Assembly (NCBI RefSeq): GCF_030758935.1
Contig: NZ_CP132333.1
Location: forward strand, 62,001 to 126,000
Source of the DNA: Geothrix sp. PMB-07
GTDB taxonomy: Bacteria; Acidobacteriota; Holophagae; Holophagales; Holophagaceae
Reading direction: 5' to 3'
DNA length: 64,000 bases
Shown: positions 33,119-39,518 of the stretch, piece by piece
Numbering within the stretch: the first letter of the stretch is position 1
Layout: every line of letters starts with the position of its first letter
Position numbers and translations under genes: made by a program
The notes under the pieces: generated by a model
What the model saw: only the letters and a program-made list of their open reading frames with translations
What the model was told of the DNA's origin: nothing
Databases searched by the model: none

Positions 33119-33180
33119 ATTTCGAATTTTTAAACATCTTATAATTAATAATTTACAAGTTGCCGAGAAAAAAAGTTAAA
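33119..33180 (+). promoter_or_regulatory. AT-rich flagellin promoter region
   Basis: This short stretch is very AT-rich in a GC-rich genome. It holds a perfect sigma70-type -10 (TATAAT, 33140-33145) and a sigma28-like -10 (GCCGAGAA, 33162-33169; consensus GCCGATAA). The TTGACG at 33113-33118 is 21 bases from TATAAT, too far for a normal pair. Which sigma factor is used cannot be decided. Confidence 0.5.
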
Positions 33181-33183
33181 GGT

Positions 33184-33203
33184 TTTCGGAGGCATTTCCG
33201 AAA
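33184..33203 (+). promoter_or_regulatory. Leader hairpin 5' of flagellin
   Basis: TTTCGGA (33184-33190) pairs with TCCGAAA (33197-33203) around a 6-base loop. If transcription starts in the AT-rich block this is near the 5' end of the flagellin mRNA and could protect it from decay. Confidence 0.4.
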
Positions 33204-33235
33204 GAGGGAGGGTCGGGGATTTCCCCTACACAACC

Positions 33236-33276
33236 TGGCAGCACGGATGCTGCCAAACAACATCACGGAGGATGTT
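33236..33276 (+). promoter_or_regulatory. Twin GGA-loop hairpins over the flagellin ribosome-binding site (candidate CsrA target)
   Basis: Hairpin 1 is TGGCAGC/GCTGCCA (33236-33242 and 33249-33255) with loop ACGGAT. Hairpin 2 is AACATC/GATGTT (33259-33264 and 33271-33276) with loop ACGGAG, which is also the Shine-Dalgarno; the ATG follows immediately. The two GGA triplets are 22 bases apart. CsrA family proteins bind GGA in hairpin loops and bridge paired sites of about this spacing. The function is inferred from this geometry. Confidence 0.6.
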
Positions 33277-33879
33277 ATGGTTACCATTCTGAGCAACGTG
33301 TCCGCGTTGGCCGCCAGCCGTCAGCTTGGCGTGAGCAAGATCGGACTCAACACCGCCATTGAGCGGCTCACCACTGGTCGTCGTGTCAACCACGCCAACG
33401 ACGATTCCGCGGCCCTCACGGCCGGCAACACGGCCATGGCCAACTCCCGCAGCGCTGCGGCGAAGGTCTATGCCAACAACGCTGCTTACTTCGCCGCGTT
33501 GAATGCTGACGGCGCGAACGCGCAGAAGACCCAGGACGCCTACCGCATGGCCGAAATGGAAGGCGCCGGCACCACCTCTGACGCGGAATATGCCACGCTC
33601 CAGACCTCGACTGGCGGCACCACTTCCGCTGCGGCCCTCACGGCCATCGCCGCAAGCCAGGTGACCAATGCCAACGCCATGGCTTCGGCCCTGACGTCTG
33701 CGCAGACCAATGGCATCCAGGCTGAAACGTCCCAGGGCATCGCGGATGCGTGGCTGGGCGCTGACATGGGCGCCGAAATGGCGAACCTGACCAAGTACCA
33801 GATCCTCATGCAGGCTGGCACCAGCGCTCTGAACAACGCGAACCAGTCCGCGAACTCCGTCCTCGGCCTCTTCCGGTAA
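33277..33879 (+). CDS. Flagellin (short, about 200 residues)
   Basis: Major filament subunit candidate. The N-terminal D0/D1 helix is recognisable ('ALAASRQLGVSKIGLNTAIERLTTGRRVNHANDDSAAL', compare the RINSAKDDAAGLA region) and the C-terminus 'YQILMQAGTSALNNANQSANSVLGLF' is typical. The centre is a short Ala/Thr/Ser-rich stretch with no D2/D3 domains. The ATG at 33277 follows a strong CGGAGG site; the longer reading from 33160 is leader sequence. It is followed by a hairpin and flaG, fliD and fliS. The Ser/Thr-rich middle (about residues 85-155) is a plausible target of the neighbouring GT41 enzyme. Confidence 0.9.
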   Translation: MVTILSNVSALAASRQLGVSKIGLNTAIERLTTGRRVNHANDDSAALTAGNTAMANSRSAAAKVYANNAAYFAALNADGANAQKTQDAYRMAEMEGAGTTSDAEYATLQTSTGGTTSAAALTAIAASQVTNANAMASALTSAQTNGIQAETSQGIADAWLGADMGAEMANLTKYQILMQAGTSALNNANQSANSVLGLFR

Positions 33880-33956: not shown

Positions 33957-34346
33957 ATGACGAGTCAGGTAAGCGCTGTGGGCGGTTCAATGTCGAGTGT
34001 TGTCTTGACCCAGGTGGCTACCGCCCCACCTAATGCTTCCGTCGCGAAACCTGCCCCATCGGTGGCAGGCAATGATCCAATCCAAGCAGGCGAATCCAAT
34101 CAGCGCGTCTCCGGACCAACCGAGACGGCTTCCGCAGTGGCGCACATCAATCAGCATCTCGGGCAGGCCCAGTCCGACCTGAAGATGCACATGGACCCCG
34201 CCTCAGGCCGTCCGGTCTACCAGGTGATTCAGCAGGGCACGGGCCAAGTACTACTTCAGGTTCCTTCCGCGGAAGTGCTGGGCATGTCTCGCCGCATGCG
34301 CGACCTGGAAGGCCAAGCGGGTGGCCTCGTCGATAAGCAGGGCTAG
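33957..34346 (+). CDS. flaG: FlaG family protein
   Basis: The 129-residue product ends with the FlaG core: 'LKMHMDPASGRPVYQVIQQGTGQVLLQVPSAEVL', corresponding to the family's 'tGevirqiPseevl' motif. FlaG proteins influence filament length and are usually encoded between flagellin and fliD, as here. The N-terminal 60 residues are low-complexity Ala/Ser/Pro. The ATG at 33957 has a near-perfect AAAGGAGG ribosome-binding site. No membrane or signal segment is visible. Confidence 0.9.
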   Translation: MTSQVSAVGGSMSSVVLTQVATAPPNASVAKPAPSVAGNDPIQAGESNQRVSGPTETASAVAHINQHLGQAQSDLKMHMDPASGRPVYQVIQQGTGQVLLQVPSAEVLGMSRRMRDLEGQAGGLVDKQG

Positions 34347-34376: not shown

Positions 34377-36353
34377 ATGGCTACGACGAATGCGTCCTCG
34401 AATTCTCTGAATGGTGTTGCGACTGGTATCGACACCACGGCTCTGATCAACGCCATGGTGGCCCAGAAGAGCGGCAACCTGAACCGGTTGCAGGCCAAGA
34501 AAACCCAGAATGATGCGCGGTCGACCGCGCTGACCGCCATGCGAACCAGCCTGTCTGCGCTGACACTCAGCATGGCGGCGCTGCAGGACAGGCTCAACAA
34601 CAACGCCGTGGCGAGCACTGACATCAACAACACCTATGTCACCGCCACGGCCAAGGCCTCCCTTGGGGCGGCCTCGGGTTCGTTCGACATCAACGTGGCG
34701 AGCGTGGCCACCAAGGCGCGGATCTCCACCACCTCTACGTTTCAGGGTTCGTCCTCGAATCCGGCAGTTCTGACCTACACCAGTTCGACCGCGAAGACGA
34801 CGACGAGGGCCATCACTTTCAACATCACTGCCAATGATGGCGCTGGCAATGTCGCGGGTACCTTCACGGTCGGTGGCAACACCTACAATTTGACGGGGAC
34901 CAATGGCACCTTGAGCGGGCAGGCGGGAACGCCATTGGAGGGCCTCAAGGTCTCCGTGACGGGCTCCGCGACCGGTGCCGGGACGCTGACCCTTTCGACG
35001 ACCACGACCATGGCGGCAAGTGATCCCACCGCGGCCATTTTCAGCGGGGGCAATGGCACGGCCAGCTTTGCCATCAAGGGGACCGATGGCACTGTTACCG
35101 CCTTCAACCTGACGGACAACAGCCTCAACGGCCTGCGCTCCGCCATCAATGCCAACAGCAAGACGGTCACTGCCACCATCATCAACACGGGAGCTGGGGC
35201 GAACCCCTATCAGCTGGTGCTGACGGCCAAGGATACAGGCACCGGAAAGACCGGTGGTGTCATCACCCTGGCCGATGTCACAGCACCAGGTGGTGCCACC
35301 GTGAACGCAAGCCTGGGCATCACCGCGGGAACCCTGACCGGTACGATCAGTGCGCCCACCGGCCTCACAGGGGGCCTTACGTCTGACATGTCCGGCGCCT
35401 CGGCGAAGGATGCGGTCTTTACGCTGAACGGCATCCAGCTGACCCGTCAATCGAACGTGGTCAGCGACGCCAGTGATGGCATGACCTTCACCCTGAAGCA
35501 GGGTGGACAGACGGGTACGACCACCCTGACCGTGACCCCGGACAAGATCAACGCCACCACGGCCATGCAGGATTTCATCGCCAAGTACAACCAGTTTGTG
35601 AAGGACTACAAGGCGGCCTCCCAGGCCACCAAGAACACGGATGGATCGGTGGCTCTGGCGCCGCTGTCGAATGACCCCAGCGCCCGCGCGTTCATGGCAG
35701 ACCTCAAGGCGGCCTTGGCAAGCACTGCCGCCGGCATCCCGGGCACGGATGGCTACAAAACCTGGGCGAGCCTGGGAGTCACCAACCTGGCGGACGGCAG
35801 CCTCATGCTGAACAATGCCACCTTCCAAAATGCACTGACCACCGACCTCACCAATGTCCAGAAGCTTTTCACTTTCTCGGGAACCACCACCAATCCGAAT
35901 GTGACTTTCAAGAGCGCTGGTCCGAGTACGGTCACGGGACCGGTCGATTTTTCGATCACGAAAGATGGGAACGGAGCTTTGTGGGGGACTTTCACCAGGA
36001 ACGGCGTGACCAGCTCCCCGGTGCAAGTAAGTTCGGACGGCACCCTTACGGGCACAGGTGACTATGCCGGGCTGGTGCTGAACGTGACGGGAACGGGCAC
36101 TGGCACTTTGAATTTGGTGCGCGGCCCGGGGCGGACCGCCGTGGACCTGATCAACAAATTCACAAACACGAATGGCACCATCACCACGCTTTTGAATTCA
36201 ATCACGACGCAGAATGCTGGACTGGCAAAGCAGATCCAGGCGGCGCAATCGTTGGTGGATTCTCAGACAACCCAACTGAAGGCGAAGTTCGCCGAAATGG
36301 AACGGGTGGTGGGTCAGATGAAGGCTTCGGCCGGCTCCTTGATTGGTGGCTAA
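34377..36353 (+). CDS. fliD: Flagellar filament cap protein FliD (hook-associated protein 2)
   Basis: The 658-residue product has the FliD N-terminal region ('GVATGIDTTALINAMVAQKSGNLNRLQAKKTQNDARSTAL', matching the 'GlaSGiDt..iv..lm' motif) and a C-terminal coiled-coil region ('TTLLNSITTQNAGLAKQIQAAQSLVDSQTTQLKAKFAEMERVVGQM'). The middle is a long Thr/Gly/Asn-rich beta domain. FliD caps the growing filament and promotes flagellin polymerisation. The ATG at 34377 follows GGGGTGAG. It is longer than many FliD proteins (about 450-500 residues) because of the expanded central domain. Confidence 0.93.
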   Translation: MATTNASSNSLNGVATGIDTTALINAMVAQKSGNLNRLQAKKTQNDARSTALTAMRTSLSALTLSMAALQDRLNNNAVASTDINNTYVTATAKASLGAASGSFDINVASVATKARISTTSTFQGSSSNPAVLTYTSSTAKTTTRAITFNITANDGAGNVAGTFTVGGNTYNLTGTNGTLSGQAGTPLEGLKVSVTGSATGAGTLTLSTTTTMAASDPTAAIFSGGNGTASFAIKGTDGTVTAFNLTDNSLNGLRSAINANSKTVTATIINTGAGANPYQLVLTAKDTGTGKTGGVITLADVTAPGGATVNASLGITAGTLTGTISAPTGLTGGLTSDMSGASAKDAVFTLNGIQLTRQSNVVSDASDGMTFTLKQGGQTGTTTLTVTPDKINATTAMQDFIAKYNQFVKDYKAASQATKNTDGSVALAPLSNDPSARAFMADLKAALASTAAGIPGTDGYKTWASLGVTNLADGSLMLNNATFQNALTTDLTNVQKLFTFSGTTTNPNVTFKSAGPSTVTGPVDFSITKDGNGALWGTFTRNGVTSSPVQVSSDGTLTGTGDYAGLVLNVTGTGTGTLNLVRGPGRTAVDLINKFTNTNGTITTLLNSITTQNAGLAKQIQAAQSLVDSQTTQLKAKFAEMERVVGQMKASAGSLIGG

Positions 36354-36416: not shown

Positions 36417-36842
36417 GTGAACGCTTATGCCAAATCGGCCGATGCCTATCTCGTACAACGCATCATGGGTGCCAGCCCTGAGCAGCAGGCCGCGCTCATC
36501 ATGGAAGCCGGACAGCTTCACATGGGCCGTGCCATCCATGCCATGGGCCAGAACAACATGTCCGCCGCGTTCAACAGCTTTATCCGGGTTTCTGAGGTCA
36601 TCATGGAAGCCACGGTCCGCCTTGATCTGGAAGAGGGGGGCGAGCTGGCGCACAATCTGAAAAAGCTCTATGACTGGTGGTCCTGGGAGATCAAAGTAGC
36701 CAGCAAGTCCAGGGACCGGGCGCGCCTGGAGGCGGTGGCCCGGGACATGGGCGAGATCCGGATGGCCTGGGAGCAGTACCACACCAAGAAGTCGGCGCTC
36801 GACGGGCAATCAGACCTCCTCCTGCGGGACCGGGTGGTATGA
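36417..36842 (+). CDS. fliS: Flagellin export chaperone FliS
   Basis: The 141-residue, all-helical product fits FliS: 'MNAYAKSADAYLVQRIMGASPEQQAALIMEAG' at the N-terminus, then 'HNLKKLYDWWSWEIKVASKSRDRARLEAVARDMGEIRMAWEQ'. FliS binds the C-terminus of flagellin and keeps it unfolded before export. The GTG at 36417 has a GGGAGGG ribosome-binding site. Its stop codon overlaps the ATG of the next small gene (ATGA), indicating translational coupling. A divergent second FliS-like gene lies at 39114-39518. Confidence 0.9.
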   Translation: MNAYAKSADAYLVQRIMGASPEQQAALIMEAGQLHMGRAIHAMGQNNMSAAFNSFIRVSEVIMEATVRLDLEEGGELAHNLKKLYDWWSWEIKVASKSRDRARLEAVARDMGEIRMAWEQYHTKKSALDGQSDLLLRDRVV

Positions 36843-38917: not shown

Positions 38918-39113
38918 GGATGGCTCCGGTTTCGGCAGGGCGCTCCCTTTGTCTCACGGAATGGCTCCGGGTGGAGGCCTGATCCTCGGGCCATGGGCAG
39001 ACCTGGCGGCATCAAGTTTCATCGTCGCTTTGCCGATGGGCAGATTGGGAAGCAATGGGGCGATCCCAGGAATTCGTGTCGCCAGGACGATTCTGGAGGG
39101 AGAGCCATTTCTG

Positions 39114-39518
39114 ATGACCAACTCAGTCCATGGCGAAGGTTCATCGTTGGCCGAGTCAGGGGCCATCCCCGAACATGTGGTCGTGCTGCTTCTGGAGGCG
39201 GCTCAGCGCTTCTTGGTGAAACTGGAAGAGGCACTCCCTGGCGGTGATCCGAGGCCTAGGGAGTACTTCGTCAAGAAGCTCCTGGCCATTCTGGATGCGC
39301 TGCACCAGCGGTTGAATCACGAAGCGGGCGGAGAGCTTGTGGGCAATCTGATCCGGCTCTACGCCTGGTGGGGGCACGAGATTATCGAGGCCAGCGACGC
39401 CGCGGATGGGCCACGCTTGAAACGGGTCTGTGCCCAGATGGGTGACATCCGTCAAGCTTGGGAAAAGGTGCTCTTCCAAGGCGAAGGCATGTCCGAGGGG
39501 CCATCGCTCTTTCTTTAG
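39114..39518 (+). CDS. FliS-like protein (second copy)
   Basis: The 134-residue product resembles FliS at 36417-36842 through the core: 'IPEHVVVLLLEAAQRFLV' against 'SPEQQAALIMEAGQLHMG', 'GGELVGNLIRLYAWWGHEIIEAS' against 'GGELAHNLKKLYDWWSWEIKVAS', and 'RLKRVCAQMGDIRQAWEKV' against 'RLEAVARDMGEIRMAWEQY'. I chose ATG 39114; the reading from 38949 adds low-complexity residues. A weak GGAGGGAGAG site precedes it. It could serve as chaperone for a different flagellin or for FliD, or be an evolving duplicate. Confidence 0.8.
   Translation: MTNSVHGEGSSLAESGAIPEHVVVLLLEAAQRFLVKLEEALPGGDPRPREYFVKKLLAILDALHQRLNHEAGGELVGNLIRLYAWWGHEIIEASDAADGPRLKRVCAQMGDIRQAWEKVLFQGEGMSEGPSLFL

Follow-up and report, generated by a model that had tools for sequence, protein, structure and literature searches.

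In this study we describe twin hairpins directly upstream of the flagellin gene of the soil bacterium Geothrix sp. PMB-07, which very probably form a dual-site translational switch for CsrA, with FliW as the likely antagonist. What we observe are the hairpins themselves, compensatory changes in their stems, the position of the Shine-Dalgarno (SD) sequence, adjacent csrA and fliW genes, the co-occurrence of these genes in the genus and the recurrence of the element in other phyla. CsrA binding, bridging by one dimer, repression and release by FliW are proposed from homology and from the systems of B. subtilis and C. jejuni. The window that we analysed is a stretch of 64,000 nucleotides from a genome of 4.24 Mb in one contig (Geothrix, Acidobacteriota), and its relevant features are:

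33179..33205, + strand: sigma-28-like promoter, TAAAGG...CCGAAA (consensus match only)
33216..33227, + strand: small GGGG-ATTT-CCCC hairpin in the presumed 5' UTR (predicted fold)
33237..33254, + strand: hairpin 1, upstream predicted CsrA site, GGCAGC[ACGGAT]GCTGCC (sequence, fold, relatives)
33259..33276, + strand: hairpin 2, predicted CsrA site over the Shine-Dalgarno, AACATC[ACGGAG]GATGTT (sequence, fold, relatives)
33277..33879, + strand: flagellin, 200 aa (Pfam Flagellin_N and Flagellin_C above cut-off)
33957..34346, + strand: FlaG (Pfam PF03646, 1.2e-9)
34377..36353, + strand: FliD, filament cap (Pfam FliD_N and FliD_C)
36417..36842, + strand: FliS, flagellin chaperone (Pfam PF02561, 3e-19)

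The gene at 33277-33879 is the sole flagellin that we found in the genome. One other Flagellin_N match was considered as a second flagellin and rejected, being FlgL, located behind FlgK. With a length of just 200 aa the flagellin is almost or entirely devoid of a variable outer domain, and the same applies to its closest relatives. A second FliS-type open reading frame (38949-39518; PF02561, 1.8e-16) lies a few kb from the first, so that the window carries two FliS paralogues close to one flagellin.

Hairpin 1 is made up of GGCAGC (33237-33242), the loop ACGGAT (33243-33248) and GCTGCC (33249-33254), with a seventh pair T33236-A33255. Hairpin 2 is made up of AACATC (33259-33264), the loop ACGGAG (33265-33270) and GATGTT (33271-33276), and the ATG follows at 33277. 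Both stems are perfect, and the distance from one GGA start to the other is 22 nt. A first-pass annotation of this DNA had described two perfect adjacent stems with these loops and this spacing, the second loop being the SD and its stem ending at the ATG, and all of this proved exact. The MFE and centroid folds both contain the two hairpins; the 44-mer leader has a z of -4.7, an equally good fold occurring in none of 200 shuffles. When the 64-kb window was searched for hairpins with an NNGGAN hexaloop and five or more Watson-Crick pairs, these two were the only ones lying close together, and 300 dinucleotide shuffles of the window gave no such pair. The loop of hairpin 2 matches the CANGGANG consensus quoted in PMC4894983. 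Two ANGGA hexaloops, the second over the SD and both conserved in relatives, thus present what seems to be the dual-site CsrA geometry that the first-pass annotation had proposed. Its further statement that the hairpins sequester the start does not hold for the stem alone. The loop of hairpin 2 contains the SD core GGAG, which is predicted to be unpaired at ~0.9, and the ATG follows immediately after the stem. According to the fold model, hairpin 2 presents the SD and does not bury its core, and 'sequester' fits only the CsrA-bound state. With the SD in the loop, its hiding would fall to CsrA and not to the stem.

For the analysis of conservation, flagellin relatives were taken from 60 genomes, and 25 leaders, the window's own included, were aligned over 48 columns. 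GGA is invariant in both loops across these leaders, 93.9% of the stem cells are paired, and changes on both sides occur in 6 of the 12 pairs. Cells changed on both sides number 15, compared with 3.5 in shuffles (0 of 500 shuffles were as good), and slid controls score far lower. Each hairpin contributes three of its six pairs to the both-side changes, and in hairpin 1 all cells (100%) are paired. Relatives therefore keep both hairpins, whose stems have each undergone compensatory changes; it was by such conservation that the earlier annotation had suggested its reading be checked. The double role of GGAG as SD accounts for part of the conservation of loop 2, but not for that of loop 1. Upstream of the hairpins, 20 of the 25 leaders in the alignment, which includes the window's own, have a sigma-28-like pattern, and 17 of 25 have a G-run/C-run hairpin comparable to the small one in the presumed 5' UTR. 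The genome encodes the sigma factor FliA (261 bits). In one relative (G022; L008, G022:C13) three flagellin genes follow one another in tandem, and twin hairpins precede each of them. The second and third copies retain the hairpins although they have no sigma-28-like element of their own, which points to post-transcriptional control. Two flagellins from csrA-bearing Geothrix genomes (G036 and G029; L022 and L027) are without the canonical twin. In the L022 leader GCACC[GTGGAC]GGTGC is followed downstream by AGAGGAG, which is unstructured, and in the L027 leader the first site is without a GGA hexaloop.

Both csrA and fliW, for which the first-pass annotation had proposed to look, are present in the genome, single-copy and adjacent. 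The only csrA match (79.7 bits, E 7e-22) is above the Pfam cut-off, the only fliW match reaches 122.8 bits (E 2e-35), and the fliW frame stops ~22 nt upstream of the csrA start. The best solved-structure matches of the two proteins are the two chains of 5dmb, the FliW-CsrA complex of Geobacillus. Directly 3' of csrA in the fliW-csrA cluster there is an open reading frame of 61 aa (MGGFMEVSAAGSVAQSQALVQGQ..., L002:2157-2342). Of nine RNA-binding residues of CsrA listed as conserved across bacteria (PMC6692469), eight are identical here (L2, R6, K7, I14, I18, A36, R44 and E46), and the one change is V instead of I at position 42. Within the genus, fliW and flagellin are present in all 25 genomes with csrA, while three genomes, which are incomplete (72-87%), have flagellin without csrA or fliW. 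Nine of the 37 Geothrix genomes lack flagellin, and the same nine lack csrA and fliW; this joint absence suggests that CsrA in Geothrix serves mainly the flagellum.

A covariance model of the leader gave one strong match in the own genome of 4.24 Mb (72.2 bits). The runner-up (26.6 bits) lies within the start of thrS and was judged to be chance; other weak matches are mostly inside long open frames. Across 297 genomes of the phylum, the model's strong matches are leaders of flagellins from the window's family; of the matches ranking next, two precede flagellins in other parts of the phylum (G055, G237). Several matches with E values of 1e-4 to 1e-2 were set aside, as they fall within coding sequence or come from genomes that lack csrA. 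In family f3 of the class, where csrA, fliW and flagellin are present, the model found no match among the genomes sampled. Two Geothrix genomes carry twin hairpins of the same kind that reach up to the start codon (ATG) of short, unrelated-looking open reading frames, MSSISGLSSAPTQSY... and MSGIQGVSAAASAAA..., at L115:2001-2046 and L116:2001-2047 (both - strand); the first loop of L116 is AAAGAC, without GGA. It might be possible that these are further CsrA targets. Neither the window nor 15 motif-positive loci contained a match to any Rfam family at the gathering threshold, and at permissive thresholds the best match had 19 bits against a cut-off of 70 bits, nothing real. The twin leader is thus covered by no curated Rfam family.

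A degenerate motif derived from the leader, GCACGGANGCN{8,20}WTCANGGAGGAW, was scanned against ~85,000 species genomes and gave at least 121 matches in at least 120 stretches. Among the 121 matches listed, 90 lie directly before a flagellin according to a local profile, and an independent Pfam search called flagellin in 61 of the 73 listed members scanned; three further listed matches precede incomplete open reading frames with flagellin-like beginnings. The listed flagellin matches come from at least about 12 phyla, named by record title and mostly from MAG records: Acidobacteria, Spirochaetes (with the twin element in Brachyspira and Treponema), Bacillota, Gemmatimonadetes, Nitrospirae, Deltaproteobacteria, Omnitrophota, Hydrogenedentota, Armatimonadetes, Verrucomicrobia (Opitutales), Planctomycetes and Goldiibacteriota. 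Listed matches in Pseudomonas, Rhodobacter, Methylocapsa and Arenibaculum are not flagellins. In the stem columns left free by the motif, 83 distinct listed flagellin leaders pair far above shuffled partners. The third pair of hairpin 1, for example, is paired in 95% of them versus 56% after shuffling, with five pair types. The pairing excess is much smaller in 28 listed non-flagellin matches. FliW and CsrA were each found in 35 of the 38 flagellin-match genomes tested, compared with 3 (FliW) and 4 (CsrA) of 12 non-flagellin-match genomes; Fisher p values of 2e-5 for FliW and 1e-4 for CsrA are indicative, the genomes having been hand-picked for variety. Three of the 38 are without both csrA and fliW, and all three are MAGs that may be incomplete. 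We lean towards the view that the twin leader forms an RNA family which spans phyla and has so far gone unrecognised, and that it is a standard CsrA operator before flagellins in a large part of the FliW bacteria. As such it would either go back to the ancestor of the flagellar system in these bacteria or have evolved repeatedly, and the Geothrix leader is then one clear member.

In the switch that we propose, one CsrA dimer would hold the ACGGA hexaloops of both hairpins. Since the CsrA site in hairpin 2 is the SD itself, bound CsrA would block ribosomes and flagellin would not be made. After completion of the hook, the export of flagellin would release FliW from it, and the free FliW could bind CsrA. 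The block would then be lifted, and cytoplasmic flagellin would be kept low.

It might be asked whether a protein is needed at all. As a plain SD hairpin or RNA thermometer, hairpin 2 could tune initiation by melting, and its low predicted stability (-4.2 kcal/mol) and its position against the start codon would suit such a role. However, little would be gained from melting an SD core that is already predicted to be unpaired, and for this reason we reject the thermometer. Moreover, the conservation of hairpin 1, which has no contact with the SD, is no lower than that of hairpin 2, its loop carries an invariant GGA, and melting explains neither the identity of the loops nor the link to csrA and fliW. 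Altogether we consider protein-free control highly improbable.

We attach equally little weight to the idea that the hairpins bind another protein or a small RNA and that the link to csrA is coincidental. The loops could conceivably be bound by an antisense RNA, and in the literature searched we found no binding, expression or footprint data for this organism. Against this idea, the loops match the CANGGANG hexaloop consensus of CsrA (PMC4894983), csrA, fliW and flagellin are jointly present or absent in the genus, and CsrA and FliW accompany the motif in 35 of the 38 flagellin genomes tested elsewhere. CsrA might also bind without repressing, the leader mainly stabilising the mRNA or titrating CsrA as a decoy. 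The flaA leader of C. jejuni does titrate CsrA besides being repressed (PMC4894983), but titration is there an addition to repression, and the position of hairpin 2 on the SD favours a block of ribosomes. A decoy role could coexist with repression here; as a replacement for it, we give this reading a slim chance.

For the dual-site CsrA switch, the closest described case is the flaA leader of Campylobacter jejuni, with two ANGGA stem-loops at a spacing of 21 nt, the second over the ribosome-binding site, and with measured CsrA binding and repression and FliW as antagonist (PMC4894983). Like flaA, the Geothrix gene has a short leader with two ANGGA hexaloop stem-loops, the second over the ribosome-binding site, a sigma-28-type promoter, csrA and fliW in the genome, and covariation in relatives. 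The spacing of 22 nt, start to start, fits the 21 nt of flaA and the optimum of 18 nt quoted in PMC4894983. In contrast to flaA, the leader belongs to another phylum, its loops have ACGGA instead of A(U/A)GGA (PMC6692469), and the binding and repression that were measured in C. jejuni are predicted here. The first-pass annotation had drawn its analogy with the hag leader of B. subtilis. This stands as to the kind of system, since the CsrA-FliW-Hag partner switch has the same mode of action (review PMC7652899) and hag too has two CsrA sites (predicted in Geothrix), one over the SD, and FliW as antagonist; however, flaA is the nearer precedent, and the likeness to hag, where function was shown, is one of description. 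Spirochaete flaB leaders (Borrelia, Leptospira, Treponema) have CsrA sites at the flagellin SD (PMC8668096, PMC9481697) and share with Geothrix this position of the site (predicted here), GGA hexaloops and the fliW-csrA gene pair, although one hexaloop is described for Leptospira flaB leaders and the Geothrix leader has two.

The same annotation had expected an extension of the mechanism to a new phylum. Acidobacteria are already among the phyla listed as possibly using FliW against CsrA (PMC4682653), so the presence of the mechanism in the phylum was anticipated; we did not find the RNA element itself described in that paper. The literature searched contained no paper joining Geothrix, flagella and CsrA, and none joining RNA motif, flagellin, CsrA and Rfam. 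The mechanism is therefore already known, and our contribution consists of the RNA element as it occurs in Acidobacteriota, the covariation that it shows and evidence for the recurrence of the twin leader in ~12 phyla.

Our findings support, at the level of sequence, a control of flagellin by CsrA and FliW in Acidobacteriota, a phylum for which previous work had listed just the two genes. A single short motif based on the Geothrix leader recovers flagellin leaders of ~12 phyla, with independent covariation. As such it leads from case studies to a definable RNA element that could be modelled and added to Rfam, and that could help to predict CsrA targets in the genomes of uncultured bacteria.
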